A DNA stretch of 59,319 nt from Planctomycetaceae bacterium. GTDB lineage: Bacteria; Planctomycetota; Planctomycetia; Planctomycetales; Planctomycetaceae. The notes beneath the pieces were generated by a model. That model was given only the letters and a program-made list of their open reading frames with translations. It ran no database searches and was not told the origin of the DNA. Within the stretch, counting starts at the first letter, position 1. The number at the start of each line of letters is the position of its first letter. The stretch is from positions 1-59,319 of the forward strand of contig JAKFVC010000020.1 in NCBI GenBank assembly GCA_021732415.1, in the 5' to 3' direction. The position numbers and the translations under genes are program-made. This document shows, piece after piece, positions 3,505-56,559 of the stretch.

Positions 3505-4464
3505 ATGTCCACATCGGTTGAAATTGACGGCGTGCGTTTGTTCCTGGGGCATCCCGACACATCGGACGGAGAATGGATTGGTCAACGGGAGGTTCTGAAG
3601 CAACTGTTGGCCTGCTGGCTGGTGGTGGATGACCGCGACCTGCCCCTCGCCCCGCGCCTGGTCGGTCCGCCCGGTATCGGCAAGACAACCCTGGCCATGG
3701 CCGGCGCCAAGCTGCGCAAGCAGGAACTCTACATCTTCCAATGCACGGCCGACACACGTCCCGAGGATCTGCTGGTCACCCCGGTCCTGGCCGAAAGCGG
3801 TAAGATTGTCTATCACGCCTCATCGATGGTGACCGCCATGATTCGTGGGGGCATCTGCCTGCTGGACGAAGGCAACCGCATGAACGAGAAGTCGTGGGCG
3901 AGTCTCGCCCCCCTGCTCGACCATCGCCGCTATGTCGAATCGATCGTCGCCGGCATCACCATTCCGGCCCATCGCGACTTCCGCTGTGCCGTGACGATGA
4001 ACATCGATGAATCCACCTTTGAAATCCCCGACTACATCCTCAGCCGCCTGCAGCCGACCTTGCAATTGGGATTCCCCAGCAAGCAGGAAGAGTTCGCGAT
4101 CCTCAAGTACCACCTGCCGTTTGTGGAAGCCGACTTAATCAACTTGACGGTCGAGTTCCTCCAGCGAGCCCACGGCTTGAAGCTCGACTTCTCAACCCGT
4201 GACGGCATCAACCTCTTGCGGTACGCGGTCAAGCGGATGTTGCAGGACAAAGAGCACCCGATCTCTAAGGACAAAGTCTGGCAGGAAGCCCTGTTCCGCT
4301 GCCTGGGCGAGGAGGCCCTGGACCTCGACCATCTCGCCCGCCGACGCAACCAGTCACTGGGCGGCAGCGCGATCCCCATGGGCCTGGGCGATTTCTTCTT
4401 CGATCCGAACGACCCGTTGCATCCTGATTTTGATGACGACGAAGATGAAGATGAGGACGATTGA
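3505..4464 (+). CDS. MoxR/CbbQ-type AAA+ ATPase with acidic tail
   Basis: AAA+ chaperone-like ATPase, 319 residues. Walker A is GPPGIGKTT (54-62). Walker B is ICLLDEGNR (117-125). A sensor-1 TMN with N166 and a likely arginine finger in SRLQPTL (R181) follow. The pre-sensor layout (EDLL after the first core strand, long insert before sensor 1) is that of MoxR-like proteins, which remodel or insert cofactors into partner proteins with a VWA domain. The last ten residues are almost all Asp/Glu ([10 protein letters not shown]). No VWA-domain gene is adjacent; the nearest, at 6604-8919, is on the other strand. The specific client is unknown. Confidence 0.88.
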
Positions 4465-4573: not shown

Positions 4574-4642
4574 CTGTAGCCTGACTCTCTGAGTCGGGTG
4601 CAGGCAGGCGAAGACAACCCGACTCGGACAGTCAGGCTACAG
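4574..4642. repeat. CCGACTC dyad element, copy 1
   Basis: Arms 4574-4599 and 4617-4642 are inverted, with one mismatch. The left arm is itself a hairpin, CCGACTC-like stem with a TCT loop. This copy lies 110 nt after the ATPase stop, the most distant of the family. Confidence 0.9.
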
Positions 4643-16285: not shown

Positions 16286-16332
16286 CGGCACCGAGTTTAA
16301 GAAGTCTGATCCATTTCGAGATTCGAGTCGAT

Positions 16333-16414
16333 GGGAGGGTGAGGCTCCTGCCGAACCGCATAGTCTGGCGAGGGCCGATAAACGCTTGCGGTTCGGCAGG
16401 AGCCTCACCCTCCC
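16333..16414. repeat. GGGAGGGTGAGGCTCC dyad element
   Basis: Perfect 28-bp inverted repeat (16333-16360 and 16387-16414) in the gap between convergent genes, 47 nt after the cytochrome stop. The same family, nested around another repeat, occurs at 31121-31246. Confidence 0.92.
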
Positions 16415-16486
16415 GTGACGTCGAAGTATCCTTCACGGCATTGCCCGGAGGGACGCCCCTCGATTGTCCGACTCTACAACCACCGA

Positions 16487-20618: not shown

Positions 20619-20686
20619 CTGTAGCCTGACTCTCTGAGTCGGGAGCATTCAACGAGGAGTACCCGACTCGGAGAGTCAGGCTACAG
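20619..20686. repeat. CCGACTC dyad element, copy 2
   Basis: Arms 20619-20643 and 20662-20686, each with a mini-hairpin. It ends 5 nt from the stop codon of the minus-strand M3 gene. Confidence 0.92.
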
Positions 20687-20691
20687 ATTCC

Positions 20692-22518
20692 CTACTTCTT
20701 CGCCTCCACGAGCTTCAAGAACCGGTTCACTCGGCTTTCGACAACATCGAGACTCTTGTTCCAGAAATCGGCGGTTGTCAGATCATAACCGAGGGTCGAC
20801 TGCACAGCCTCTTCGGCATCTCGACACCCGGTCGCCACCAACAATTGACGGTATTTCTCGGGGAAATTGTCTGATTTACCGCCGGCCTCTTTCGCCAGGG
20901 CATAGGCACCCAACGACAGCAGATACCCAAACGTGTACGGGAAGTTGTAGAAGGGCAGACCACTGATATAGAAGTGCAGCTTCGAAACCCAGAAGCGGCC
21001 GTTGTAGCCGTCATCGGCCAGGGCACCGCAATAGGCTTCACGCTGCGCGGCGACCATCAATTCCGACAACCGGCTGGCACTGACTTCACCGTTCGCCCGT
21101 TCCGCATGAAAATTGTTTTCGAAGATGAATCGGCAATGGATATTCATCAAGAAGGCCATCGCATCCGACAGCATATTATCCAGCAACCCGATTTGCTCAT
21201 CGGCCGATTCGCACTGTGCCAGGCGTTCTTCCGCCAGGACGCATTCGGCAAACGTCGACGCCGTTTCGGCGAGGTTCATGGGATAATCCTGCAGGACCAG
21301 CGGCTGATCACGCAGGACCCATGAATGATACGCGTGACCGAGTTCGTGCGCCAGCGTGGACATGCTGTCCTCGCTGTTGGTGTAGGTCATGAAGATGCGC
21401 GACTCGCCCTTGCCCGGGAAGCCGGTGCAGAAACCGCCCTGGCGTTTTCCCGAACGATTCTCGCCCTCGACCCAGCGTTGCTCGGCGGCCATCTTGGCGA
21501 AGTCGCCGAAGTCGGGGCTGAATCCAGTAAACGTGCGGACGATGTGCGAGATTGCTTCGTCGTACGGAATCTCTTCGCTCTTGCCTGGGGCCTTGGCCAC
21601 CGGATACGGGGCACTCTGGTCGAACCACGATAGTTGCTTCACCCCCAGAGCTTCAGCCTTCTTTTCGCAATATTTTTGTAACATTCCCTTGCGCTTGGAG
21701 ATCGCATCCCACATCGCGTTGAGGGTCTCGCGGGTCATGCGATTGTGCCGCAACGGCAAATCAAGATGATCCTTGACGCCCAGCCGGCGATAGATTGCCA
21801 AACGGGTTCCTGACAGATGATTCAACGCGTCGGCACACGAATCTTCAATCTTTCCCCACGCTTTATCCGCCGCATAGAAGTTGTTTTCTCGAGCAAAGCG
21901 GTCGGGCATATCGAATCGCACTTGCCCGACCGATTTTTCGACGAGATCACCCTTCTCCATCACAGTGATCCGCAATTCGCCCGACAGCCGGTCATAGAGC
22001 CGGCCCCAGGCGTGAATGCCGTCCACGGCAAGGTCTGCCGCGAGCAGTTCCTGCTCCTTTGGCAATCGAAATGCCGCATTTTTGCGGTGCGATTTCAGAA
22101 AATATTCGACCTTCAGCAGTGCCGGATGTGCCGCCACGAACTGCGCGAAATCAGCATCGCTGGCCGCCTTCAAAGCAAAGTCGATGTTAGTCGAAACACG
22201 CTCCCGCTGCGGGTCGAGGGCTGACAAGGTTGCCTCTAACTGCTGGTACGATTTGTTGTTGGCATCCTCCGCCGCATAGCAGCCGATGAGTGCCCGCAGA
22301 TCGATCGAACGAGTCTCGACGCGTTCGTATTCTGTGAGAAACTCCACCCAGAACGAAACCGAGGCGCTCGCACCGCCGACAGCCGGCAACTGGTCCGATT
22401 GCTTCGCCAGCCGATCCAGATCTTCCCGGTACTTGCCAAACAGGGTCTGGAATTCGGGGGTACTCGGATGCGGCAGTAACGAGATCAGATCCCACTTTTG
22501 CGAATAGCTGGCGGACAT
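20692..22518 (-). CDS. M3-family oligoendopeptidase (PepF-like)
   Basis: Cytoplasmic zinc metallopeptidase that degrades short peptides. The 608 residues match the oligoendopeptidase F size. The zinc motif HELGH is at 391-395, with a downstream glutamate in ETASTFAE (about 418-425) as third ligand. The N-terminal half is the helical lid typical of family M3. AAGG lies 9 nt before the ATG. The upstream region on this strand contains the dyad repeat 22568-22702. Confidence 0.93.
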   Translation of the reverse strand: MSASYSQKWDLISLLPHPSTPEFQTLFGKYREDLDRLAKQSDQLPAVGGASASVSFWVEFLTEYERVETRSIDLRALIGCYAAEDANNKSYQQLEATLSALDPQRERVSTNIDFALKAASDADFAQFVAAHPALLKVEYFLKSHRKNAAFRLPKEQELLAADLAVDGIHAWGRLYDRLSGELRITVMEKGDLVEKSVGQVRFDMPDRFARENNFYAADKAWGKIEDSCADALNHLSGTRLAIYRRLGVKDHLDLPLRHNRMTRETLNAMWDAISKRKGMLQKYCEKKAEALGVKQLSWFDQSAPYPVAKAPGKSEEIPYDEAISHIVRTFTGFSPDFGDFAKMAAEQRWVEGENRSGKRQGGFCTGFPGKGESRIFMTYTNSEDSMSTLAHELGHAYHSWVLRDQPLVLQDYPMNLAETASTFAECVLAEERLAQCESADEQIGLLDNMLSDAMAFLMNIHCRFIFENNFHAERANGEVSASRLSELMVAAQREAYCGALADDGYNGRFWVSKLHFYISGLPFYNFPYTFGYLLSLGAYALAKEAGGKSDNFPEKYRQLLVATGCRDAEEAVQSTLGYDLTTADFWNKSLDVVESRVNRFLKLVEAKK

Positions 22519-27213: not shown

Positions 27214-27285
27214 TGGCCGTTCAACGTCCCGCCCCGTAATTATTTAACGGCGCCGGAAGCTCGCCTACGAAGACACTTTGAAACG

Positions 27286-31110: not shown

Positions 31111-31120
31111 AGAAGCAAAT

Positions 31121-31246
31121 GGGAGGGCGAGGCTCCCGCCGAGCCTAAGGAGACCGCAGGTCGGCGTCCGCCGGAGGCCCGTTTGATGCCTCCGGCGGAC
31201 GCCGAGCTAAAGCTCGTGTTAGGCTCGGCGGGAGCCTCGCCCTCCC
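31121..31246. repeat. Nested dyad element: GGGAGGGCGAGGCTCC family around a second inverted repeat
   Basis: Outer perfect 27-bp arms are 31121-31147 and 31220-31246. Nested inside is a different perfect 18-bp inverted repeat (31161-31178 and 31188-31205). It lies between convergent genes, 10 nt after the LutB stop and 26 nt from the stop of the minus-strand gene. Confidence 0.92.
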
Positions 31247-31272
31247 ATATTGCCATAGGCGGACAACGACAC

Positions 31273-32723: not shown

Positions 32724-32756
32724 CGGCGTTCCTCAACGACTATTTTGCCTTCGACT

Positions 32757-34754: not shown

Positions 34755-34858
34755 GAAAGACTGCCTCCTCACACACAAAAGCTCGCGTTGCTTAGGGCTG
34801 CTTGGTTTCCCACCTGACCCGGTTCACAAGGGCCCCTTGTGCTCGGAGGCAGACTTTC
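34755..34858 (-). ncRNA. ffs: Signal recognition particle RNA (small bacterial type)
   Basis: About 104 nt read on the minus strand. The ends pair over 14 bp with one mismatch (34845-34858 with 34755-34768). The apical domain IV at 34795-34820 reads GGGTCAGGTG, a GAAA tetraloop, then CCAAGCAGCCC. This matches the universal GGTCAGGT...AAGCAGCC internal loops bound by Ffh. Compared with the common CC-GGAA-GG tip it is GG-GAAA-CC. This RNA targets membrane and secreted proteins to the translocon. The exact ends are uncertain by a few bases. Confidence 0.9.
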
Positions 34859-37216: not shown

Positions 37217-37233
37217 CGTGCGTATCGCGGGAC

Positions 37234-37436
37234 GGGTCTCCAGGCCCGTCCGTCCCGCTGGCATGTAACACCAGACGATGCTGAGAACACATTAACTCCC
37301 TCGAAAACCCCAGCACGAAGTGCGTTGTCTGGTCTTCCTTCGTGTCCTTCGTGACCTGCTGTAAAATTGTTTTGGAACAGAAGGTCACGAAGGACACAAA
37401 GAAATGCGACAGAGGGGACGGACGGGCCTGGAGACC
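37234..37436. repeat. Nested dyad element: GGTCTCCAGGCC family around a second inverted repeat
   Basis: Outer perfect 23-bp arms are 37234-37256 and 37414-37436. Inner different perfect arms are TGTCCTTCGTGACCT at 37343-37357 and its complement at 37381-37395. It begins 17 nt after the oxidoreductase stop. The remaining 37437-37666 shows no other feature. Confidence 0.9.
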
Positions 37437-37666
37437 CGCCCCACGCTACGCGGCGACCTTCCCTCGCGCATGAAACGACTGACTTCATGGAAAATTCAGC
37501 ATCCGCAACGGATAATGCACCAGTCTAGCCTCACCCGGCTCAATGATTGCCAGTGACAGGCAGTGAAACCGATTTCTGGCGAGCCCCACAAAATCGACCT
37601 TGTGTACGAACCAACGGCCCCGGCCGATGATTCGCGAACCACAACTTCGAGTATGGATGCACGAAC

Positions 37667-38359
37667 ATGCACGACGACGACGAACCTGACTTCAAGCCCG
37701 ACGAAGCCGACCCCGATCTCCCCGAGAAGCCCAAAGAGGGCGAGCCTCGGCAGGCGGGCGGAGGGACGTTTCACCAGGAACTGCAGCACTCGATGGTGGC
37801 CGCCCGCGTTCCCGAAGCAGTCGGCATGGGTACGTTCTGCACGGGAGCCATCGTGCTCACCGGGCCGCACGAATTCGTGCTCGACTTCGTCCTGCGGATG
37901 TCGCCGCCACACCGCATCGCGCAACGCGTGGTGATGGCCCCGAACGTCGTGGGATTGTTCTTGCGAGCGTTGAAAGAGAATCTCGACAAGTACCGCCAGA
38001 ACTTCGGGCCCCCAGCGACTCTGCCGCCTCCCCCACCCGGGATGAAGCCACCCCCGATTTCGGAAGTCTACGAGCAATTAAAACTGCCCGAAGAAATCAT
38101 GAGCGGCACGTACGCGAACGCCGTGATGATCGTCCATTCTCCGGCCGAGTTCTGCTTCGACTTCGTGACCAGCTTCTATCCCAAATCGGCGGTCTCAGCG
38201 CGGGTCTATCTGGCGGTGCCGCACGTCACGCAGTTGTATGATTCACTCAGTCGCTCGTATGAACAATACGCGCAACGGGCTCAACAGAATCAGCAACCCA
38301 AGCCCCCGGAAAATCCGCCGCCCGCCGGTCCGGGCGGGAATACGTGGCAGATTCCGTAA
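37667..38359 (+). CDS. Tandem DUF3467 protein
   Basis: 230 residues. It begins with an acidic low-complexity head (DDDEPDFKPDEADPDLPEK). Two DUF3467-like copies follow: about 50-115 (TGAIVLTGPHEFVLDFVLR ... VVGLFLRALKENLDKYRQNFG) and about 145-205 (NAVMIVHSPAEFCFDFVTSF ... LYDSLSRSYEQYAQ). The linker and tail are proline-rich. DUF3467 is usually a single domain of about 90 residues of unknown function. The stop is followed 5 nt later by a CCGACTC dyad that runs up to the next gene's ribosome site. Confidence 0.8.
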   Translation: MHDDDEPDFKPDEADPDLPEKPKEGEPRQAGGGTFHQELQHSMVAARVPEAVGMGTFCTGAIVLTGPHEFVLDFVLRMSPPHRIAQRVVMAPNVVGLFLRALKENLDKYRQNFGPPATLPPPPPGMKPPPISEVYEQLKLPEEIMSGTYANAVMIVHSPAEFCFDFVTSFYPKSAVSARVYLAVPHVTQLYDSLSRSYEQYAQRAQQNQQPKPPENPPPAGPGGNTWQIP

Positions 38360-38363
38360 GGAC

Positions 38364-38430
38364 GTAGCCCGACTCTCTGAGTCGGGTGCATTCGACCAGA
38401 GAAAACACCCGACTCAGAGAGTCGGGCTAC
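38364..38430. repeat. CCGACTC dyad element, copy 3 (perfect)
   Basis: Perfect 25-bp inverted repeat (38364-38388 and 38406-38430). Each arm contains the 19-bp mini-hairpin CCCGACTC-loop-GAGTCGGG. It lies 5 nt after the DUF3467 stop; the GGGGAG of the next gene is directly adjacent at its end. Confidence 0.95.
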
Positions 38431-38441
38431 GGGGAGCACTC

Positions 38442-39221
38442 ATGACGCGGCCAGACTGGCAACTGCCGCGTGGAGTCTCTCGGGCGTTGTGGGAATACAC
38501 TCAACAACCCCACATCGCGACCGGCTACGACCAGTCAATCGCGAACTCCGCCCTATCCCGCTATGACACCCAAGTCTTGCACGAGCACTTCCCCCACCCG
38601 GGGCGACTTGTCGATCTCGGCTGCGGCACTGGCCGGCACGCGCTGGAATTTGCTGCGAGGGGAATTGATGTCCTCGGGGTGGATCTCTCGCGTGAGATGT
38701 TGATCCAACTGCAGGGTAAAGCACGTAGTGCCGGGATCGATGTCGCCACACTCCGCGCCAATCTCTGTGATCTCGACGGCATCCCGGATGCGTCGTTCGA
38801 CGGCGCGATTTTGATGTATGCGACCCTGGGGATGATCCCGGCCGCCGCAGATCGAGCTCGTGTGTTAGACCAAACCCGACGCATACTGAAACCGGGAGGA
38901 CGCTTCGCTCTGCACGTCCACAATCTGTGGTTCAACCTGTTCGATGCCCAAGGCAGGACATGGCTCTGGAAGGACCGTTGGCAGCGGTGGTTCCAAGGCC
39001 AGCCCGGCGGTGACCGAGTCGTCCACGATCGCGGCATCCCCAATTTTCAAATGCACGTTTTTTCGCGCCGCGAGATCGCCAACTTGTTGACCACGGCAGG
39101 TTTCACAATTGAACATTGGCAACCGTTGAATGCCACTGCGTCCGGTCCGCTATTGTCATCCTGGATGCTTGGTGGCGTGAGGGCCAACGGCTGGATCATC
39201 GTGGCCCGGGCGGACATTTGA
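38442..39221 (+). CDS. Class I SAM-dependent methyltransferase
   Basis: 259 residues from ATG 38442 with GGGGAG 5 nt upstream. Motif I is LVDLGCGTGRHALEFAARG (about 56-74), followed by a SAM-binding acidic residue in VLGVDLS. The later motif GGRFALHVHNLWF resembles UbiE/Coq5-type small-molecule methyltransferases. It is translated directly after the DUF3467 gene across a dyad repeat. Its substrate is unknown. The next gene is convergent and ends 14 bp away. Confidence 0.88.
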   Translation: MTRPDWQLPRGVSRALWEYTQQPHIATGYDQSIANSALSRYDTQVLHEHFPHPGRLVDLGCGTGRHALEFAARGIDVLGVDLSREMLIQLQGKARSAGIDVATLRANLCDLDGIPDASFDGAILMYATLGMIPAAADRARVLDQTRRILKPGGRFALHVHNLWFNLFDAQGRTWLWKDRWQRWFQGQPGGDRVVHDRGIPNFQMHVFSRREIANLLTTAGFTIEHWQPLNATASGPLLSSWMLGGVRANGWIIVARADI

Positions 39222-39235
39222 AGGCCACTCGCATT

Positions 39236-40549
39236 CTACGACTCAAGATGTGGCTCCGATCTGCCCGCTTCTGAATCGATTCCCAACCACAGCAGCCCAC
39301 CCAGGGCACAGACCACGCAAGCGACAGAAATCGCCGCTGGCCAGCCAAATTCTTTGGCGAGATACGGGGTAAAAATCGGAGCCAGCAGCCCCCCGGCATT
39401 GCCACCCGTATTCAAGAAGGCACAGGCCATGCCACCCGTTTTCTTCTCGAGTGTCGGTGCGGTCGTCCAGAAGATGCCCTCGCACAAACCCAGTGATCCC
39501 AGCGCCAACGCGAAGTACAGCACGATCTGTTGAGGGTCGGTGGTCGTGACTCCCAGTAACGCAAACAACGCGCTCGCTCCCATGCCGGTCAGCGCCATCA
39601 CGCGGCAGCCTCGGCGGTGGCCGAACCGGTGGCAGAGCCAATCCGAATACCAGCCCCCGAACCCCATGCCGACCGCCATCGCGATCAATACCGTAAACGT
39701 GGCCCGTCGACTTTCATCGGTTGGGAGTTTGAGAACATCATCGAAGTAGTAACCCAGCCAGTAGAAAAACAAATACTGGAAATAGCTAAGTGCTGCGTAA
39801 CTGAGCGTCAGCAACAGCAATTGAACGTTGCCGAACAGGCGTAAGATATCCCGGATACTGGCCGTCGAACGGGCGGGGACGCGATCATTGACGTGAACTA
39901 AATTGCGTTCGGCGTCGTTCGTCCAACTGTGTTCATTCACATCATCCGCGGCCAGCGAGGTCCAGACGACCGAGAAGGCCATCATCGTCAAGCCGCAACA
40001 GACAAACGCCGCGGGCCAGTCGACTTGATCCATCAACCAGCCGAACAGCGGGTAGCATGTCGCGACACCGACCAACGCCCCCGCCGTCGCCAAACCATTC
40101 GCCGTCGAACGTTCCTTGAAGGGCAACCACAAAGAAACACTGCGAGCCGCCGCGGGATGTAACGCCACACTCAAAGCTCCCGCCAATCCACGGATGAAAA
40201 TCAGCGGGATCAGCATGGCAGCCAGCGACAATTTCAAGTAACCCAGCAGGCCGGTCAGAATCACACAGCCACCCATCCCCAGACCCAACCCGGCCAGGGC
40301 CCGCTTCGGCCCGACTCGATCGATCACCCAGCCCCCGGGCAGCATGCCGCAGGTGTAAACAAACAGGAACGTGGAATAGACCCAGCCCATTTGCTCTTTG
40401 GAAATCTCGCCCGATTTTATGAACCGCTCGCTACCAACAACAGAAATATTGTTGCGGTTGAAGTGGCCGAGGAACGTAAAGCCCATCAGCAGGACGACGA
40501 TCAGCCAGCGGACATTCGTCGGTTGAGACTCACGCAGGGTCGAGGACAT
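39236..40549 (-). CDS. MFS transporter, organic-anion/sugar-acid symporter type
   Basis: 437 residues from ATG 40549 (an in-frame extension reaches 40600). About twelve membrane helices. The N-terminus FLGHFNRNNISVV and the loop GGWVIDRVGPKRALAGLGLG fit the anion:cation symporter (ACS) family of MFS, which moves hexuronates, tartrate or similar acids with protons. It is the last gene of the minus-strand cluster, downstream of the enolase-superfamily enzyme, with a dyad between them, so a shared substrate is plausible. Confidence 0.88.
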   Translation of the reverse strand: MSSTLRESQPTNVRWLIVVLLMGFTFLGHFNRNNISVVGSERFIKSGEISKEQMGWVYSTFLFVYTCGMLPGGWVIDRVGPKRALAGLGLGMGGCVILTGLLGYLKLSLAAMLIPLIFIRGLAGALSVALHPAAARSVSLWLPFKERSTANGLATAGALVGVATCYPLFGWLMDQVDWPAAFVCCGLTMMAFSVVWTSLAADDVNEHSWTNDAERNLVHVNDRVPARSTASIRDILRLFGNVQLLLLTLSYAALSYFQYLFFYWLGYYFDDVLKLPTDESRRATFTVLIAMAVGMGFGGWYSDWLCHRFGHRRGCRVMALTGMGASALFALLGVTTTDPQQIVLYFALALGSLGLCEGIFWTTAPTLEKKTGGMACAFLNTGGNAGGLLAPIFTPYLAKEFGWPAAISVACVVCALGGLLWLGIDSEAGRSEPHLES

Positions 40550-40654
40550 ATCAGCTATCCCATTGAAAAGCAGGCCTGCAAAACCGAGCGAGAAACTCAC
40601 TGTAGCCGAACGTAGGTTCGGCTTCCAGCCTGTCGTTCTTAATGTGGGGCGTCA

Positions 40655-40737
40655 GCCGAACCTGTAGCCTGACTCTCTGAGTCGGGAGCATTTCGACGAG
40701 GAGTACCCGACTCGGAGAGTCGGGCTACAGGTTCGGC
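40655..40737. repeat. CCGACTC dyad element, copy 4 (extended arms)
   Basis: Arms of 32 bp (40655-40686 and 40706-40737) with a few mismatches, extended at the outside by GCCGAAC / GTTCGGC. It ends 9 nt from the stop of the minus-strand enolase-superfamily gene. Confidence 0.92.
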
Positions 40738-40746
40738 AGAGCCTCA

Positions 40747-41904
40747 CTACCCCATCCGGAACTTCTTCGCGATCTCCGGCGGAAACTCATACCCGATCCC
40801 CGGCCGGGTCGGCAAAGAGATCACCCCGTCGCGCACTGGAAACCCGGCATTCTGCAGTTCCTGCCGGAGTGGCGAATCAAACACTTCCGCCGGAGCGAAC
40901 TCAATAAACGGAGTAATCGGCGAATAAGCCGCCAGATGCACGCTGGCTGCTCCCAGGATTTGCGTCGACCAATTCCCCGGGCAGACGATGGCCCCGCGCG
41001 GAAGAGCTAACTCGACGATTCGCTTGGCTTCGGTCAAGCCGCCGCACGTCGTCATGTAAGGCTGCATAACCCCGACGTGGCCGCGGTCCATCATGTCGAG
41101 AAACTCCCACCGCGTGACCGCATGCTCGCCCATCGCTAATGGGATGGATGTCTTCGCAGCGAGCTTGGCATAAGTTTCCGGGACATCGACGGGAAACGGA
41201 GTCTCGAAGAAGTAGACGTCGAATTCTTCCAGCTCACGGCAGACCCGAACCGCGGTGGGCACATCGTTGAAGAGATACCCGACATCCACCATCAAGGTCG
41301 GCTTCGAACCCATCGCTTTTCTAAATCGCCGAGCCAGCTCCACCACATCGGCCGGTGTCGACAACATGGGCTCGACCTTGAAGGCACGATACCCCAAAGC
41401 CGCCAGTTTTTCGGCCCGGGCGACCTGTTGGGAAAACATCGGCTCGCCGCCCCACACGTCTGACACGAGCGTGCAATAGGGCGTGACCTCCACTTTCTGT
41501 CCGACTGGAGTCTGAAAGAAACCTCGCTGCACGCCACCCAGCAACTGCCAGACCGGTTGCTCGAGCATCTGCCCATAGATGTCCCAGATGGCGACGTCCA
41601 ACGCGCCGAGAATGATGATCTCCCAACCCCGCCGGTTGGTGTGCATCAAAGAATCCCAGACATGCTGCCACAGCCGCGCGGGGTGAGTGATCTCCTGCCC
41701 CAGCAACAGGCGGCCGAAGTGCGTGTCAGGTCCTCCCACGGTCGCTTGCACGACTCCCGGCGGGACGCGAAAGACCTCGGAAAAACCACTCAGCCCGCCA
41801 TCCGTATGCACGCGAATGCAGGCCAGAGGTTCGACGCCCCCTTTATCGGGATCTATCTCCGGCCCATCGCCAATGACGAACACTTCGAAACGCGAGATCT
41901 TCAT
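40747..41904 (-). CDS. Enolase-superfamily (mandelate racemase/muconate-type) enzyme with altered active site
   Basis: 385 residues from ATG 41904. Members abstract the alpha-proton of a carboxylate; many dehydrate sugar acids. The barrel metal ligands are visible: Asp in LMVDVGYLF, Glu in YFFETPFPV and Glu in LAMGEHAVTR. The first lysine pair position reads FKVEP (KxE instead of KxK). The usual catalytic histidine in the 'PHxW' segment is Gly here (VCPGNWSTQIL). This suggests a non-standard reaction. It lies between the WD40 gene and an MFS symporter gene. Confidence 0.88.
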   Translation of the reverse strand: MKISRFEVFVIGDGPEIDPDKGGVEPLACIRVHTDGGLSGFSEVFRVPPGVVQATVGGPDTHFGRLLLGQEITHPARLWQHVWDSLMHTNRRGWEIIILGALDVAIWDIYGQMLEQPVWQLLGGVQRGFFQTPVGQKVEVTPYCTLVSDVWGGEPMFSQQVARAEKLAALGYRAFKVEPMLSTPADVVELARRFRKAMGSKPTLMVDVGYLFNDVPTAVRVCRELEEFDVYFFETPFPVDVPETYAKLAAKTSIPLAMGEHAVTRWEFLDMMDRGHVGVMQPYMTTCGGLTEAKRIVELALPRGAIVCPGNWSTQILGAASVHLAAYSPITPFIEFAPAEVFDSPLRQELQNAGFPVRDGVISLPTRPGIGYEFPPEIAKKFRMG

Positions 41905-41923
41905 GGCAGGCCTTGAAAAGAAC

Positions 41924-42012
41924 GTAGGATGGCCGCCCCGGCCGTCGTATGTTCGGCACGGGTTGGGAATGGCAAACCACAACAGAGAAGACGGGCAAGC
42001 TGCCCATCCTAC
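41924..42012. repeat. GTAGGATGG dyad element
   Basis: Outer GTAGGATGG / CCATCCTAC arms with mini-hairpins of 5 bp and 3-nt loops: GGCCG-CCC-CGGCC (41931-41943) and GGGCA-AGC-TGCCC (41993-42005). A solitary left arm recurs at 44764-44786. Together with the two following elements it fills most of the 278-bp gap upstream of the enolase-type gene. Confidence 0.82.
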
Positions 42013-42057
42013 ACGATTTCGTGTGACCTGCCACCAAGCCTAGCAGTCGCAGCATGA

Positions 42058-42154
42058 GGCGTCAGCCGAATCTGTAGCCTGACTCTCTGAGTCGGGAGCA
42101 TTTCGACGAGGAGTACCCGACTCGGAGAGTCAGGCTACAGGCGCGGCTGACGCC
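42058..42154. repeat. CCGACTC dyad element, copy 5 with GGCGTCAGCCG outer arms
   Basis: Core arms are 42072-42096 and 42116-42140. The outer arms GGCGTCAGCCG (42058-42068) and CGGCTGACGCC (42144-42154) extend the dyad. It lies between the WD40 stop and the enolase-type gene. Confidence 0.92.
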
Positions 42155-42170
42155 GCATTCCAGGACGGAC

Positions 42171-42190
42171 GGGCAGGATGCCTATCCTAC
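42171..42190. repeat. Solitary GTAGGATAGG half-element overlapping the WD40 stop
   Basis: On the minus strand it reads GTAGGATAGGCATCCTGCCC. It supplies the last two codons (Val-Gly) and the stop codon of the WD40 gene. It contains a small hairpin, GGCA-GGA-TGCC. Confidence 0.7.
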
Positions 42191-43384
42191 GACGTCGGTC
42201 AATTCCCAAACCGAAATATGCCCGGCAATATCCGCGGCGGCGATCCAACGCTCATCAGGTGATACTGCGAATGCGGAGATCCAGTCCTTAAACTGCCCCC
42301 CCCGAGAGGACCCGATTGCGGCCAGTTCCTTGCCGTCTTCCACCTGACAGACGCGGACAGTGGTGTCGCGGCCGGCCGAGAAGACCCACTTCCCATCCTT
42401 GGAGAACGCCACATCGGTAACGCCGCTCAGGTGGCCGGAAACATCGCGTAGCAGCTTGCCGGTCTCGCGCTCCAGGATGTGGACTTTCCCCGTATCCGTC
42501 TCGCCCCCCTGCCCGGTTGCCAGCAGCTTTCCGTCGGGCGAAATCGCCACCGCAACCAGGCCCACACCGGTAAACTTATTCCACATCTGTGCAGAGCCGT
42601 ACGTTGCTTCTTTCGGATCGAGCTTGGGGAACTGGACCTTCAGCACATCGAGAACTTCGGTCCCGTCATCCGTGTTCCACAACTTGAGGGCCGCTGCGGG
42701 AATATCGAAATCGTCACGCTTATAGCGGTATTCGGAAACGAGAGCACTCCGGCCATCCGCGGTCAGTGCAGTAGCGATGATCCAATTCCAGGGGTGCCCA
42801 CTCCACTTGGCAATCGGCGTCCGTTTTTCGAGATCCCACACGACGATCTGCGCGGCCGCATCGCCGGTGATCAGTCGCGAGCCGTCACCGCTCGCGGCCA
42901 TCGACATGATCCAATCGCGATGGCCTTCTAAGACGTGGGCCGCCGTCAGCGTCTTGACCACGACGCCCGGTTGCTGCCGCACCTCTTCCTTCTTCGTCCG
43001 CTTATATTCCTCCTCTCGGGCCAGTCGGTCGAGCACTACAGTGGCTTCTCCGGAAGGGGGAGCAGCCAAGTTCCAGAGTCGAACCGAGTAATCGAAACTC
43101 GAAGAGATCACCAGCTTACGGGCGGCATCGTAGTGCAGATGGGAGACAACGTTCGTGTGACCATTCAATCGCAGCGTTGGCGAAACATTCGGCGCCTCAG
43201 GCGCCTTCACCCCGGGCTTCTTTTCCGTCGGCAACTCCGGTGGACTTTCGGGAAGGTCCCAAGCGTACATTTCCCCTTCTTGATTCCCCGCGACCAATCG
43301 GCGCGACGAATCCAGAAAGGTGACTGCCGATGGCCAGCCGGGACTCTCCAAGGTCAGTTGATATCGCAGCACGGGCTTTAACAT
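42182..43384 (-). CDS. WD40-repeat beta-propeller protein
   Basis: 400 residues from ATG 43384, which has GAGG upstream. At least seven WD40 repeats, recognisable by segments such as HDA-like pairs and final WD-type pairs (VRLWNLA, IVVWDLE, VSVWEL-like). No signal peptide, so probably cytoplasmic; it is a protein-interaction scaffold. It sits downstream of the DUF1501 and DUF1549/1553 genes, the usual planctomycete order. Its stop lies inside the half-element 42171-42190. Confidence 0.9.
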   Translation of the reverse strand: MLKPVLRYQLTLESPGWPSAVTFLDSSRRLVAGNQEGEMYAWDLPESPPELPTEKKPGVKAPEAPNVSPTLRLNGHTNVVSHLHYDAARKLVISSSFDYSVRLWNLAAPPSGEATVVLDRLAREEEYKRTKKEEVRQQPGVVVKTLTAAHVLEGHRDWIMSMAASGDGSRLITGDAAAQIVVWDLEKRTPIAKWSGHPWNWIIATALTADGRSALVSEYRYKRDDFDIPAAALKLWNTDDGTEVLDVLKVQFPKLDPKEATYGSAQMWNKFTGVGLVAVAISPDGKLLATGQGGETDTGKVHILERETGKLLRDVSGHLSGVTDVAFSKDGKWVFSAGRDTTVRVCQVEDGKELAAIGSSRGGQFKDWISAFAVSPDERWIAAADIAGHISVWELTDVVG

Positions 43385-43400
43385 GGCAGGTTCCTCAACC

Positions 43401-43464
43401 GTAGCCCGACTCTCTGAGTCGGGCTTTCTCAAGTCAAGACACCCGACTCAGAGAGTCGGGCTAC
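43401..43464. repeat. CCGACTC dyad element, copy 6, inside a probable operon
   Basis: Arms 43401-43423 and 43442-43464 are perfect. On the minus strand it starts 3 nt after the DUF1501 stop and ends 16 nt before the WD40 start, overlapping the WD40 ribosome-site region. Confidence 0.95.
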
Positions 43465-43467
43465 GCG

Positions 43468-44733
43468 TCACGCCAGCAAGTCGGTTACCACCTTCGAACC
43501 AAACGGCGCCAGCGGCACCGGCCGCAGTCCCGCCATGTTCTCGGTCGTGGGATCGATCGACAGAGCTTGATAGATCGTCGCGAAGAAATCCCCTTCCGTC
43601 ACCGGGTTGTCTTTCACGTCGTAGCCATCCTCATCCGAGGCTCCGTAAACGGTGCCTCCCTTGATGCCGCAACCCGCCAGGGCCGTGCTCCAGCAGCGGA
43701 TATAGTGATCGCGGCCAGCCCGGTTATTGATCTGCGGCGTCCGACCAATTTCACCCACCCAAACGATGAGGGTTTTCTCCAGCAATCCACGATCTTTCAA
43801 GTCCTTCAGCAACCCGGCCCAGGCATGATCCATCGGGGGCGCGAGACCCTTGTGCCACATGAAATTATCCGCGTGCGAATCGTAGCTGCTTTGGCCAACC
43901 TCGACGAAGGCGACCCCCGATTCGACCAGTTTGCGGGCCATCAAGCAGCGTTTGCCGAATCCGCTGTTGCCGTATTGATCGCGGTACTTTTCCCACTCGG
44001 CATCGACATTGAAAACCGTGCGGGCATTCTGCAAACGCCGGGCTGCTTCGTATGCCTCGCGATGCATCCGGGCGACATCGGTCTTGTATTCCTTCTCAAA
44101 GCGATCCTCGATGAACGACCGCAATTCATGCCGCCGCAGTTCGTTCGCGGGGTCCATGTTGGAGCCCGAAAATGTGGGCAGAGCCCCCTCGGCGCTGAGC
44201 GAAAACGACTGGTATTGCGGCCCCAAAAATCCACTGCCGGAATCTCCATGAGCGAAGATCTTGATAAAACTCGGCAGGTCAGCTTTCGATTGTCCCTGGT
44301 ACTTGGCGACGATCCCCCCGATCTCCGGAAAGCGGACCGTGTTGGACGGTCGGTACCCAGTATGCATCAGATAGATGCCGCCGGGATGATCGACTTCCGA
44401 GGTCCGCATTGACCGGATGACGGCGATCTTATCCATCTGCTGAGCCATCTGCGGCATGAGCTCGCAGATTTGCGTGCCCGGCAGATTCGTCGAAATCGGC
44501 CGGAACAAGCCACCGGTCGGGCGGCCGGGTTTCATATCGAATGTCTCGAACTGGCTGGCGCCGCCATTCATCCACAACAGGATGCAGTGCTTGTTCGCCT
44601 TCTTGACCGTGTCAGCCAGATCGTTGGCGGTGGTCAACCCGCCCCAGTTCATCACCAATCCGCCGGCACCGGCCCCCAGGACACCCTTCATCAAGGCTCG
44701 ACGCGAGAGATGCTGTGGAGAATGACATGGCAT
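43468..44733 (-). CDS. DUF1501 Tat-exported protein
   Basis: 421 residues from ATG 44733, with GAGGGAC upstream. The twin-arginine signal SRRALMKGVLGAGAGG starts near residue 10. The DUF1501 body opens with LLWMNGGASQFETFDMKPG, then ADTHxx-like acidic motifs and VWVGEIGRTPQINNRAGRDH in the C-terminal half, the alkaline-phosphatase-like metal site pattern. The family always accompanies DUF1549/1553 cytochromes, as here (upstream). Function unknown, but a periplasmic hydrolase-like role is commonly inferred. Confidence 0.92.
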   Translation of the reverse strand: MPCHSPQHLSRRALMKGVLGAGAGGLVMNWGGLTTANDLADTVKKANKHCILLWMNGGASQFETFDMKPGRPTGGLFRPISTNLPGTQICELMPQMAQQMDKIAVIRSMRTSEVDHPGGIYLMHTGYRPSNTVRFPEIGGIVAKYQGQSKADLPSFIKIFAHGDSGSGFLGPQYQSFSLSAEGALPTFSGSNMDPANELRRHELRSFIEDRFEKEYKTDVARMHREAYEAARRLQNARTVFNVDAEWEKYRDQYGNSGFGKRCLMARKLVESGVAFVEVGQSSYDSHADNFMWHKGLAPPMDHAWAGLLKDLKDRGLLEKTLIVWVGEIGRTPQINNRAGRDHYIRCWSTALAGCGIKGGTVYGASDEDGYDVKDNPVTEGDFFATIYQALSIDPTTENMAGLRPVPLAPFGSKVVTDLLA

Positions 44734-46656: not shown

Positions 46657-48558
46657 ATGCCCGATTGGTCGTATCGCACGGTTTTTCGCCCGATCTTGTT
46701 CCGCATGCCCCCCGCGACGGCGCGTGATTTCACGCTGGGGTGCATGGGGACTCTTGCGCGAATGCCGTGGGGCCCGTCCGTCATCGATTTTATGGGCCAC
46801 ATGCGGACGGATGCCCGCCTGGCATACTCAGTCGGTGGTGTCACATTTCCCACGCGGGTCGGTCTGAGCTCGCGAGTCGATCCCCATCTGCAGGCCAGCG
46901 GCGCGTTTGCGAAGTTTGGAATCGCCTTTTGGGAAATCGGACCGGTCACCATCAATGGCAAGCTCGGCGGCCCGATCCGGCGTCATGACGGAACGGAATC
47001 GCTGGAGTTTCCAGTTCCAGACGAAGGCCCGCGACTCGCGGCGGTCCTCGAGCAACTGCAGCGGCCCAGTCCAATACCACCATTCGTACGATTGCTCGTG
47101 CGGGCCGACTCAACGGGCATCCACGAGGAAAATCCGGAAATCATCGCTCGGCTGGGAACTCGCCCCGCGGCCTATATCCTGCAGCTGGCAAATCCAGATC
47201 AAAGCGTCGCAGAGATTGACCGACTGGCCCAGCAAGCCCGCAGTCATGGTCCACGGATGATTTTGGTCTCGGTTTCGGCGAAGGCCACCGAAGAAGCGGT
47301 GAATGCCGTCGCCCCATTGGCTCAGACTGGGGTCCTCGATGGCGTCTATATCGATGGCGGCTCGTTCAACGCTGAGGGGGCCTATTGCATCGGACAGTCG
47401 TCAGCGGGAGAAATTCCCGAGGCGGTGCGAACCTGGCGAGCGGCCTTGCCGCACGGCGCGACCATCATCACCGATGGAGGGATCCACGATCCACAACGAG
47501 CCTTGGAGCTGATTGATGCCGGCAGCGATCTGGTCACCGTCAGCAGCGGGCTGGTGTTTACCGGCCCCGGCCTCATCAAAAGAATCAACGAAGCGCTGCT
47601 GTACCGCATCCCCGCATCACCCGAGAACCGCCCGCCGCCGGAAGACTTGTCGTGGTTCTGGACCTGCTTGATGGGGATCGGCATGTTCATCGGCGGCGCC
47701 ATGGCGCTGATCATCGCCAGCACGCGGGTCGTGATGCCGTACGACGAAGCCATGGTCGGACTGTCACGCGATGAGATCTGTGCCATCAACCCGCAGTTGA
47801 TCCACTTCATGTCACACGACCGAGCGACTCTGTCGGGCACGATGCTGGCTGTGGGGATCCTGTATCTCGCCCTGTCGCTGTATGGCTCGCGCCGCGGCAT
47901 GCATTGGGCGCGGCGGACGATGATCGTCTCGGCGTCAACAGGATTCTTGAGCTTCTTCCTCTTTCTGGGCTTTGGATACTTCGATCCCTTTCACGCATTC
48001 GTCACGGCCGTCCTGTTTCAACTGCTGATCATGGCCGTCCATTGTGGCTTACCCCGCTATTCGAACCCCGTCGCTCCCGAACTGACCAACGACCGAGCGT
48101 GGCTACTCAGCCAATGGGGCCAGCTGTTCTTCGTGATTCACGGGGCCGTGCTGATCGTCGCCGGATGTGTGATAGCCACAGTCGGAATCTCGTCGGTCTT
48201 CGTGCAGGAGGACCTCGATTTCATGCGGACCACTGCCGATCAACTCTTCGGAGCCCATCCGCGATTGGTGCCGCTGATTGCTCATGATCGAGCCTCATTT
48301 GGAGGAATGCTGATTGCGTGCGGAGTGAGCGTATTGCTCGCGTCGCTGTGGGGCTTTCGCCGGGGTCACGCGTGGTTGTGGTGGGCCCTGATGACGTCCG
48401 GGACGATGGCCTATGTCACGACAATTCTCATCCATTGGCACGTCGGCTACCTGAGCCTCGAACACTTGCTGCCAGCGTATGCGGGGTTGGGATTTCTCTT
48501 CTTAAGCGGCGCGCTATCTCGCGACCATCTCTGCGGCGGAACTTCACGCGTAGCGTGA
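46657..48558 (+). CDS. Dihydroorotate-dehydrogenase-like domain fused to a duplicated membrane domain
   Basis: 633 residues. The N-terminal about 320 residues resemble a dihydroorotate dehydrogenase TIM barrel: VGLSSRVDPHLQASGAFAKF near the start and ATIITDGGIHDPQRALELIDAG with LVTVSSGLVFTGPGLI near the end. The usual FMN and catalytic signature residues are only partly present. The C-terminal half (about 340-630) has about seven to eight membrane helices built from two copies of a module: HFMSHDRATLSGTMLAVGIL (about 388) and LIAHDRASFGGMLIACGVSV (about 545). The fusion is not a standard pyrD. A CCGACTC dyad starts 3 nt after its stop. Confidence 0.82.
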   Translation: MPDWSYRTVFRPILFRMPPATARDFTLGCMGTLARMPWGPSVIDFMGHMRTDARLAYSVGGVTFPTRVGLSSRVDPHLQASGAFAKFGIAFWEIGPVTINGKLGGPIRRHDGTESLEFPVPDEGPRLAAVLEQLQRPSPIPPFVRLLVRADSTGIHEENPEIIARLGTRPAAYILQLANPDQSVAEIDRLAQQARSHGPRMILVSVSAKATEEAVNAVAPLAQTGVLDGVYIDGGSFNAEGAYCIGQSSAGEIPEAVRTWRAALPHGATIITDGGIHDPQRALELIDAGSDLVTVSSGLVFTGPGLIKRINEALLYRIPASPENRPPPEDLSWFWTCLMGIGMFIGGAMALIIASTRVVMPYDEAMVGLSRDEICAINPQLIHFMSHDRATLSGTMLAVGILYLALSLYGSRRGMHWARRTMIVSASTGFLSFFLFLGFGYFDPFHAFVTAVLFQLLIMAVHCGLPRYSNPVAPELTNDRAWLLSQWGQLFFVIHGAVLIVAGCVIATVGISSVFVQEDLDFMRTTADQLFGAHPRLVPLIAHDRASFGGMLIACGVSVLLASLWGFRRGHAWLWWALMTSGTMAYVTTILIHWHVGYLSLEHLLPAYAGLGFLFLSGALSRDHLCGGTSRVA

Positions 48559-48561
48559 ACC

Positions 48562-48625
48562 GTAGCCCGACTCTCTGAGTCGGGTGCTTTAAACGAAGAA
48601 GTCCCGACTCAGAGAGTCGGGCTAC
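48562..48625. repeat. CCGACTC dyad element, copy 7
   Basis: Perfect arms 48562-48584 and 48603-48625. It starts 3 nt after the upstream gene's stop. Confidence 0.95.
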
Positions 48626-49614: not shown

Positions 49615-49631
49615 CTCGGATCGAGAATGTC

Positions 49632-49705
49632 TGTAGCGGAATCTCGTAAGAGTTCCGCAGGAGTCTCCAGACTTCGGGGCGGAACTCTTACGAAATTCCG
49701 CTACA
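49632..49705. repeat. TGTAGCGGAA dyad element
   Basis: 27-bp arms (49632-49658 and 49679-49705) with one mismatch. Each arm contains a CGGAA...TTCCG hairpin. It lies between convergent genes, 17 nt from one stop and 16 nt from the other. Confidence 0.92.
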
Positions 49706-49721
49706 CCATTATGCAGACTCA

Positions 49722-55592: not shown

Positions 55593-56354
55593 ATGTTCGA
55601 AAACAAAGTCAAAGAACTCATCAAGCAGAAACGCGGAGTATGGGGCGTCAGTCTGCCCGATGCCTCCGACCTGACGGCAAAGTTGACCGTGGACTCGGGG
55701 ATCGACTTCCTGTGGGTGGACCTCGAACATCGGCCGTTCGAAGTCAATGACGTCCGCTGGGTGCCGATCATTTGCCGGCAGAAGAATTGTGCCTGTGTGG
55801 TGCGTGTCGCGGGACTTGATCCGCAACTCATCAAGAAAGCGCTCGACATCGGTGCGAACTGCATCATGATCCCCCAGGTCAACACGGCCGAAGAGGCCCG
55901 TCTGGCCGTGCAGTATGCGAAGTATCCGCCTCAAGGCTCACGCGGGATCTCTCCGCTGTGGACCGTCTTCATGGACGTATCGTGGGATGACTACCTGCCG
56001 GTCGCCAACGATGAGACCTGCATCATCGTGCAAGTCGAAACCCCTGAAGGCATTCGCAATCTGGAAGAGATTGCCGCGGTCGAAGGAGTCGACATCGTCT
56101 TCGCGGGACCGACCGACCTGTCGGCGTCATTGGGGCATATCGGCAAGGCCAATCATCCGGAAGTGCAGGCATTTCTGGCCGATTTTCCGCGTCGAGTCCA
56201 AAACTGCGGCAAGACGGCCGGCATCACATTCGCCGATCTCGACGCCTGCCAGCGGGCTTACGAACAGGGCTATCGATTCATCTCCTTCGGCAGCATTGTG
56301 GCGCATGGGATGTCTGGTCTGAAGACCCAATTGCAACGATTCCGCGCGTTGTAG
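55593..56354 (+). CDS. HpcH/HpaI-family aldolase
   Basis: 253 residues from ATG 55593 with AAGGGA upstream. Class II pyruvate aldolase family: cleaves 2-keto-3-deoxy acids or related 4-hydroxy-2-oxo acids into pyruvate and an aldehyde. The conserved metal-site and phosphate motifs are visible: LWVDLEHRPF, CIIVQVETPEGIRNLEEI and FAGPTDLSASLG. Its stop codon TAG lies within the first bases of the next dyad repeat. It precedes an MFS transporter gene, so sugar-acid catabolism is a reasonable inference. Confidence 0.9.
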   Translation: MFENKVKELIKQKRGVWGVSLPDASDLTAKLTVDSGIDFLWVDLEHRPFEVNDVRWVPIICRQKNCACVVRVAGLDPQLIKKALDIGANCIMIPQVNTAEEARLAVQYAKYPPQGSRGISPLWTVFMDVSWDDYLPVANDETCIIVQVETPEGIRNLEEIAAVEGVDIVFAGPTDLSASLGHIGKANHPEVQAFLADFPRRVQNCGKTAGITFADLDACQRAYEQGYRFISFGSIVAHGMSGLKTQLQRFRAL

Positions 56355-56559
56355 CCTGACTCTCCAGAGTCGGGCAAATTGCCACAATTGCCGGACCGGG
56401 ATTCGCGGCGTGTCGGCAGTTTTAAGAAGAATGATCTCACGCAAAGGCGCCAAGGCGCAAAGAACGAAGAGATGAATTCTTTGCGTCTTGGCGCCTTTGC
56501 GTGAGATCTTATCTTTTTGATTCATAGATGATGCGCCCGACTCTGGAGAGTCAGGCTAC
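56351..56559. repeat. CCGACTC-family dyad, copy 8, with a second inverted repeat nested inside
   Basis: Outer perfect 25-bp arms are 56351-56375 and 56535-56559. The mini-hairpin has changed to GACTCTCCAGAGTC, still self-complementary. Inside, a 30-bp inverted repeat (56433-56462 and 56479-56508, one mismatch) of unrelated sequence is nested. The left arm's TAG is the aldolase stop codon. Confidence 0.93.

Follow-up and report, generated by a model that had tools for sequence, protein, structure and literature searches.

Why should one family of inverted repeats lie almost against the stop codons of a planctomycete genome? The question is raised by a 59,319-nt stretch of DNA from a Planctomycetaceae bacterium (assembly GCA_021732415.1, contig JAKFVC010000020.1, positions 1 to 59,319 of the forward strand; hereafter the window), in which an initial annotation described eight CCGACTC dyads and proposed that they either insert preferentially at gene ends or take part in forming or protecting transcript 3' ends. 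These dyads are repetitive extragenic palindromic (REP) sequences that carry a GTAG tag and are paired as REP doublets forming hairpins (REPINs), and they add a member to an already known class. The best overall explanation, which we consider very probable, is that they are non-autonomous mobile elements, served by a HUH/Y1 transposase resembling the REP-associated tyrosine transposases (RAYTs) and encoded at locus L042, and that they are common just past stop codons.

All eight copies were found where the initial annotation had placed them, and each is an inverted pair of a 23-nt unit, GTAGCC[C/T]GACTC-NNN-GAGTC[G/A]GG, with the GTAG ends facing outward (family A). When one unit was folded, both ways, it left the four bases of the GTAG head free and formed an 8-bp stem with a 3-nt loop; family A thus shows a mark of GTAG REPs, a short palindrome with GTAG at its base. 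In the four of the eight pairs that were folded, the two REPs form one long hairpin (DNA folding energies -23.5 to -33.5 kcal/mol, z -7.7 to -13.2). The dyads had been described as two inverted arms of about 23-32 bp. The inverted pairing stands, but each 23-nt unit is a REP that folds into a small hairpin by itself, and a pair can accordingly form two hairpins or one long one; the longer arms are atypical. A symmetric outer extension of at least 8 nt occurs in 1 of 50 REPINs, the copy at 40655, compared with an average of 0.23 for shuffled partners; this rule misses the extension of the copy at 42058, which has three mismatches close to the head. We therefore rejected symmetric extended arms as a general trait of REPINs. 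The copies in the window are as follows; distances run from the outermost base of the REP to the closest called stop.

4576..4640: REPIN (REPs 4576-4598, plus strand, and 4618-4640, minus strand), 111 nt past the stop of gene 3505-4464
20621..20684: REPIN, 7 nt from the stop of gene 20692-22518 (minus strand)
38364..38430: REPIN, 4 nt past the stop of gene 37667-38359
40664..40728: REPIN, symmetrically extended to 40655-40737; the stop of gene 40747-41904 (minus strand) is 18 nt away, or 9 nt from the extended arm
42074..42138: REPIN, imperfectly extended to 42058-42154; the stop of gene 42182-43384 (minus strand) is 43 nt away, or 27 nt from the extended arm
43401..43464: REPIN, 3 nt from the stop of gene 43468-44733 (minus strand)
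48562..48625: REPIN, 3 nt past the stop of gene 46657-48558
56351..56559: REPIN with a long spacer and a 4-nt loop, at distance 0, the head TAG at 56352-56354 being the stop of gene 55593-56354
56435..56506: CTCACGCAAAGGCGCCAAGGCGCAAAG dyad (CTCACGCAAAGGCGCC type) of an unrelated repeat family, nested in the spacer of the REPIN at 56351-56559

Six of the eight copies had been placed 0 to 9 nt from a stop, and this count holds when the longer arms of the initial annotation are used (9 nt for 40655-40737, 27 nt for 42058-42154). That no copy lies in a coding region does not fully hold for the copy at 56351, whose TAG ends a gene. An Rfam scan of the window at gathering scores gave no match for the dyads; its sole match was a bacterial small signal recognition particle RNA on the minus strand at 34755-34855 (RF00169).

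Across the 350 contigs of the genome (9.87 Mb), exact matches to the C form of the unit number 147+151 = 298, compared with 0+0 for the reversed pattern, and the C and T forms together have 409. Placement was measured in the window plus 80 stretches of 20 kb picked by contig number regardless of content, 1.66 Mb in total, drawn from contigs C1 to C41 of the 350 and including 5,200 N. Genes were called with our own k-mer caller rather than a published tool (1,010 genes, 79% coding), and the null consisted of random intergenic placements matched for element length. In this sample family A gave 141 hits against 3 for its reversed control, while families H (68 against 30) and L (3 against 5) were set aside because their control counts were too close to the real ones. 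Family A comprises 50 head-out dimers, with a spacer of 3-25 nt in 41 of them and most commonly of 19 nt, as well as 41 lone REPs. It is dispersed, high-copy and extragenic, with 2 of the 50 dimers and 5 of the 41 lone units inside genes. Excluding genic elements and those at sequence edges removed 3/50 dimers and 6/41 lone REPs from family A, 3/40 and 1/28 from family B, and 0/12 and 2/19 from family C. Family A REPINs are about five times denser in the window (8 in 59 kb) than in the remaining sample (42 in 1.60 Mb), and four of them lie within 5 kb at 38364-43464.

The excess of REPINs at gene ends is real and far beyond chance. Of the 47 intergenic dimers of family A, 25 have a stop no more than 10 nt away, where a fraction of 0.045 would be expected (p = 1.5e-21); 27 have one within 15 nt and 30 within 20 nt. 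Within its own intergenic region, the median dimer stands at the 9th percentile of distance to the stop (p = 1.7e-9). Near starts there was no significant excess of these dimers (2/47 within 10 nt; 6/47 within 20 nt, p = 0.17). The initial annotation had proposed comparing stop distances with random intergenic sites, and its expectation survived that comparison beyond the window, where 20 of 39 REPINs are no more than 10 nt from a stop, compared with 4.5% of random placements, and 24 of 39 within 20 nt. A first, smaller placement sample, from which 3 of 47 elements were left out for having no REP with two or fewer mismatches, pointed in the same direction. Lone family A REPs are within 10 nt of a stop in 5 of 35 cases (p = 0.019; within-region p = 0.25). 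In family B the corresponding counts are 20/37 dimers and 6/27 lone REPs, and in family C they are 6/12 and 6/17. Because these other REP families of the same genome are placed alike, stop-proximal placement is a property of the REP class and not of the family A sequence. At 20 nt, dimers differ from lone REPs in family A (30/47 vs 5/35, p = 6e-6) and family B (p = 0.022) but not in family C (p = 0.72). Thirteen called stops fall inside a family A REP; a stop supplied by the repeat was nevertheless rejected as the sole cause of the pattern, since 23 of the 30 dimers within 20 nt sit 1-18 nt beyond the stop. The lack of a U-tract noted for the window copies is correct more widely, with a run of at least five T within 12 nt after the element in 1 of 33 gene-end REPINs.

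The genome has 13 matches to Y1_Tnp, and at one of these, L042 on contig C21, a 285-aa open reading frame (ORF) is bracketed by two family A REPINs (four REPs). By eye, the ORF carries the motifs PNHVH, FWQ and YIANNP, which correspond to HUH (NHxH), WQ and YIxxNP in the motif table that PMC6006769 gives for the RAYT family, and it matches the NCBIfam model REP_Tyr_transpos (NF047646, E = 2.2e-14). A PDB sequence search with the L042 protein gave no match up to E 1. Because one REP (L042 2147-2169) falls within the N-terminal part of the listed ORF, the protein may start later than listed. Relatives of this gene are bracketed by family A REPs as well, both in L085 of the congener G077 and in L114 (a metagenome-assembled genome titled Rhodopirellula sp., JAAYEH010000701.1), where one of the four REPs is degenerate; at L091 (G130), which begins at a contig end, a variant REP lies on the side that is present. 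The scan of these loci needs the GTAGCCTGACTC form, without which the G077 transposase looks free of REPs. By comparison, 2 of 12 other Y1 loci have a family A REP anywhere in about 3.3 kb, and neither REP arrangement brackets its gene. Across the family, five of the six genomes with a close RAYT relative (E below 1e-70) are among the nine that are REP-rich (at least 10 matches), of 170 genomes in all (Fisher p = 6.6e-7, with thresholds fixed after the lists had been seen and genomes that are not independent). Together, these loci suggest that the L042 RAYT-like HUH/Y1 transposase is likely the partner of family A REPINs.

Several results weigh against this assignment. The ORF scores 53.6 bits with NF047646, under the curated cut-off of 80, and 22.8 of the required 23 bits with Pfam PF01797 (Y1_Tnp), or 23.8 in the genome scan; we infer that a long insertion in the ORF lowers these scores, and because the protein is below the curated family cut-off we term it RAYT-like by context. 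Four RAYTs about 58-64% identical to it (L086-L089) have no family A REP in the locus examined, some of these loci lying at contig ends. No close RAYT relative turned up in four of the nine REP-rich genomes (G022, G078, G110 and G111), and the reverse holds for G001, which has such a relative but no family A REP. Within the present genome, 8 of the 13 Y1 loci have no recognisable bracketing REP. At family A heads, the published cleavage dinucleotide CT exceeds what base composition predicts, yet it is not commoner than CC. In the cleavage model set out in PMC8266576, GTAG guides cut at CT and GTGG guides at CC. The base just 5' of the family A head is a pyrimidine in 95 of 100 dimer ends, a point in favour of the REPIN reading, and the preceding dinucleotide is CC in 27, CT in 24 (about 6 expected from base composition), TC in 16 and TT in 11, while at the heads of the GTGG-headed family B (n = 80) it is TC in 51 and CC in 23. 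CT as a strict cleavage signature of family A was therefore rejected, CC being equally common.

Family A is one of several such systems in this cell. Four further REP sequences each bracket their own Y1 gene, namely GTGGGACGGG at L043, GTAGGATGGCCG at L040, GTAGCCAGGGGC at L031 and GTGGCACAGGTTC at L036, which brings the REP-bracketed Y1 loci to 5 of 13 with family A included; in 0.86 Mb these sequences have 68, 18, 6 and 3 matches, respectively. Among other RAYT relatives, 12 of 32 loci have a one-stem, REP-like palindrome flanking the gene on both sides, with stems that differ from family A, in a scan that misses imperfect stems. In the window, a dimer of a second REP family (GTGGGACGGGTC-GGCCCGTC), whose bracketed Y1 gene is in L043, occupies 37227-37444; spacers of this family are long (55-330 nt in the sample) and often contain other dyads. 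At 41905-42181, a GTAGGATGG-type dimer adjoins the REPIN at 42074; L040 contains the Y1 gene that GTAGGATGGCCG repeats bracket. Dyads of the GGGAGGGCGAGGCTCC family, which lack a GTAG head, lie in two convergent intergenic regions (16286-16486 and 31111-31272).

Comparison with the congener G077 (about 85% DNA identity) gives a view of turnover. Of 38 intergenic regions, 24 could be aligned, 20 facing a stop and 4 divergent; listed patterns only were scored, so that off-list dyads (49615 here, 57956 in G077) were entered as none. Elements are common to both genomes at 41905, 43385, 44692 and 48559, which include the REPINs at 42074, 43401 and 48562, the last with further dyads in its spacer in G077. 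Others are present in one genome, at 20483 in that of the window and at 27214, 32724 and 39222 in G077, the dyad at 32724 having no GTAG head. The family differs between the congeners at 56355 and 49615, and 38360 and 40550 are mixed. The REPIN at 20621..20684 is missing from the orthologous G077 site, where the absent stretch is longer than the REPIN, and where the window has the REPIN at 38364, G077 carries a truncated copy and then an unrelated REPIN. The region 49615-49721 holds an off-list GTAGCGGAATCTCGTAAGAGTTCCGC dyad (GTAGCGGAATC-type, GTAG-headed), and G077 has an unrelated GTAGCCACG-type REPIN there. Thus, in at least 6 of the 20 orthologous stop-bearing regions, either one genome alone has an element or the two have different families. 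The four divergent regions are free of the listed families in both genomes. The stretches that are missing do not equal the elements base for base, so that insertion points are approximate. The G077 ortholog of gene 55593-56354 has three more codons before its stop, which fits an insertion that trimmed this gene and supplied its stop, a direction of change that we infer from the two sequences. Taken together, the bracketed transposase gene and the differences in occupancy at orthologous sites support mobility of family A. Insertion may also occur into the elements themselves, as 5 of the 14 dyads of the CTCACGCAAAGGCGCCAAGGCGCAAAG kind (E-type) in the sample lie inside the spacers of REPINs, of three families; the associated p of about 1.5e-8 is overstated, having assumed 20-nt spacers that are far too short for family B.

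Why, then, are the elements at gene ends? Insertion could be random and followed by selection, so that copies disappear from genes and promoters and survive most safely in the strip that follows a stop, an account that we take seriously while giving it somewhat less than an even chance. It agrees with the scarcity of dimers in genes (2/50, against 83% under random placement) and in divergent, promoter-bearing regions (4/47, against 33%), and with mismatches to the consensus that are as frequent close to stops as away from them (0.87 vs 0.82, p = 0.95), which gives no sign of special upkeep at stops. However, mere avoidance of genes and promoters would spread dimers through the downstream region, whereas family A dimers crowd the stop within their own regions, and lone family A REPs show little crowding. 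Alternatively, the transposase complex may favour single-stranded or hairpin DNA near the ends of transcription units, or palindromes already there, which is plausible but again falls a little short of even. The crowding that families A and B show inside their regions (it is not significant for family C dimers taken alone, n = 6), the different elements at orthologous gene ends (56355, 49615 and partly 38360) and the nested dyads all point this way. Against biased insertion, family A has no common target sequence beyond the pyrimidines, the orthologous comparison comprises 20 stop-bearing regions in one congener, and the nesting statistic is inflated as described. On these data, biased insertion and selective survival cannot be told apart. 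The interpretation in the initial annotation is supported in part, through placement that extends beyond the window and through the support for mobility; that annotation had not recognised the REPIN class. In a stronger and more speculative version, which we regard as fairly unlikely, gene 3' ends in this lineage could be landing pads, where REPIN families with their own transposases would insert at the same few nucleotides past stops, replace each other between sister genomes and nest in one another's spacers, drawn by existing hairpins or single-stranded DNA.

The hairpins might instead be kept for what they do, by stabilising mRNA at its 3' end, stopping read-through or tuning translation of the upstream gene. 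Their stable folds would suit such a role, as would the far greater frequency at stops of long-hairpin dimers than of lone REPs in family A, and E. coli REPs less than 16 nt from a stop are reported to lower translation (Liang 2015, as cited in PMC12306157). Yet the contrast between dimers and lone REPs is weak in family B and absent in family C, whose lone REPs also hug stops, divergence is no lower near stops, occupancy differs between the congeners in at least 6 of 20 stop-bearing regions, and 32 of 33 gene-end elements have no T-tract. On balance, we think functional retention improbable. That the dyads are unusual Rho-independent terminators is scarcely credible, although hairpins directly after stops would invite the idea: they are nearly strand-symmetric, and a single sequence family recurs at hundreds of sites and brackets a transposase gene. 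Intrinsic terminators were accordingly rejected, for their missing T-tracts and for the same sequence at hundreds of sites.

We return to REPINs served by the L042 enzyme as the preferred explanation. Each REPIN consists of two inverted REPs, each a GTAG head plus an 8-bp hairpin, usually about 20 nt apart, and would behave as a non-autonomous mobile element. By analogy with published enzymes, the most likely substrate of the RAYT-like protein is the GTAG hairpin, recognised as single-stranded DNA, with the pair then being copied or moved. The copies found most often are those just past stops, or in the last codons of a gene, where the GTAG can supply the stop; the cause of this location we can only surmise. 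Copies at gene ends would be transcribed as strong hairpins. An effect of these on ribosome speed or on the protection of mRNA 3' ends, of the kind reported for E. coli REPs, may follow.

E. coli and pseudomonads were already known to follow this placement rule, which is measured here cleanly in a genome far from proteobacteria. With several REP families and their transposases in one cell, the insertion sites of REPINs and their selective retention become testable questions, and families with different heads (GTAG vs GTGG) can be compared in one background. In the REPIN concept, the mobile unit served by a RAYT is a pair of inverted REPs with a short spacer between them. REPINs were described in Pseudomonas fluorescens (Bertels and Rainey 2011, PMC3116915), whereas here five sets of REP and transposase were recognised in a planctomycete-like genome. 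In a thin literature search, we found no paper on dyads nested in REPIN spacers or on replacement of families at orthologous gene ends. GTAG REPs in Planctomycetes were reported by Di Nocera 2013 (PMC3733652), with R. baltica among the hosts of several families. As that paper describes them, GTAG REPs lie near ORF 3' ends (less than 20 bp for convergent ORFs in the genomes it diagrams), their head TAG is often the stop codon, and REPtrons are repeat-specific in species with multiple families. Family A resembles them in these respects and in its GTAG head, short stem and loop, head-out dimers and dispersal. In E. coli, 260 of 496 REPs lie within 15 nt of a stop (Liang 2015, as cited in PMC12306157), and 446 of 4,072 in RepRanger's own wider E. 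coli REP set (PMC12306157). Family A dimers are like the former, with about half (27/47) within that distance, and differ from E. coli REPs as presented in PMC8266576, which have a bulged stem and other sequences. The nested dyads recall ISPpu9, as PMC8450116 reports it, in that mobile DNA has landed in a REP; unlike ISPpu9, the nested elements here are small, unrelated dyads within REPIN spacers, and the family found at an orthologous gene end can differ.

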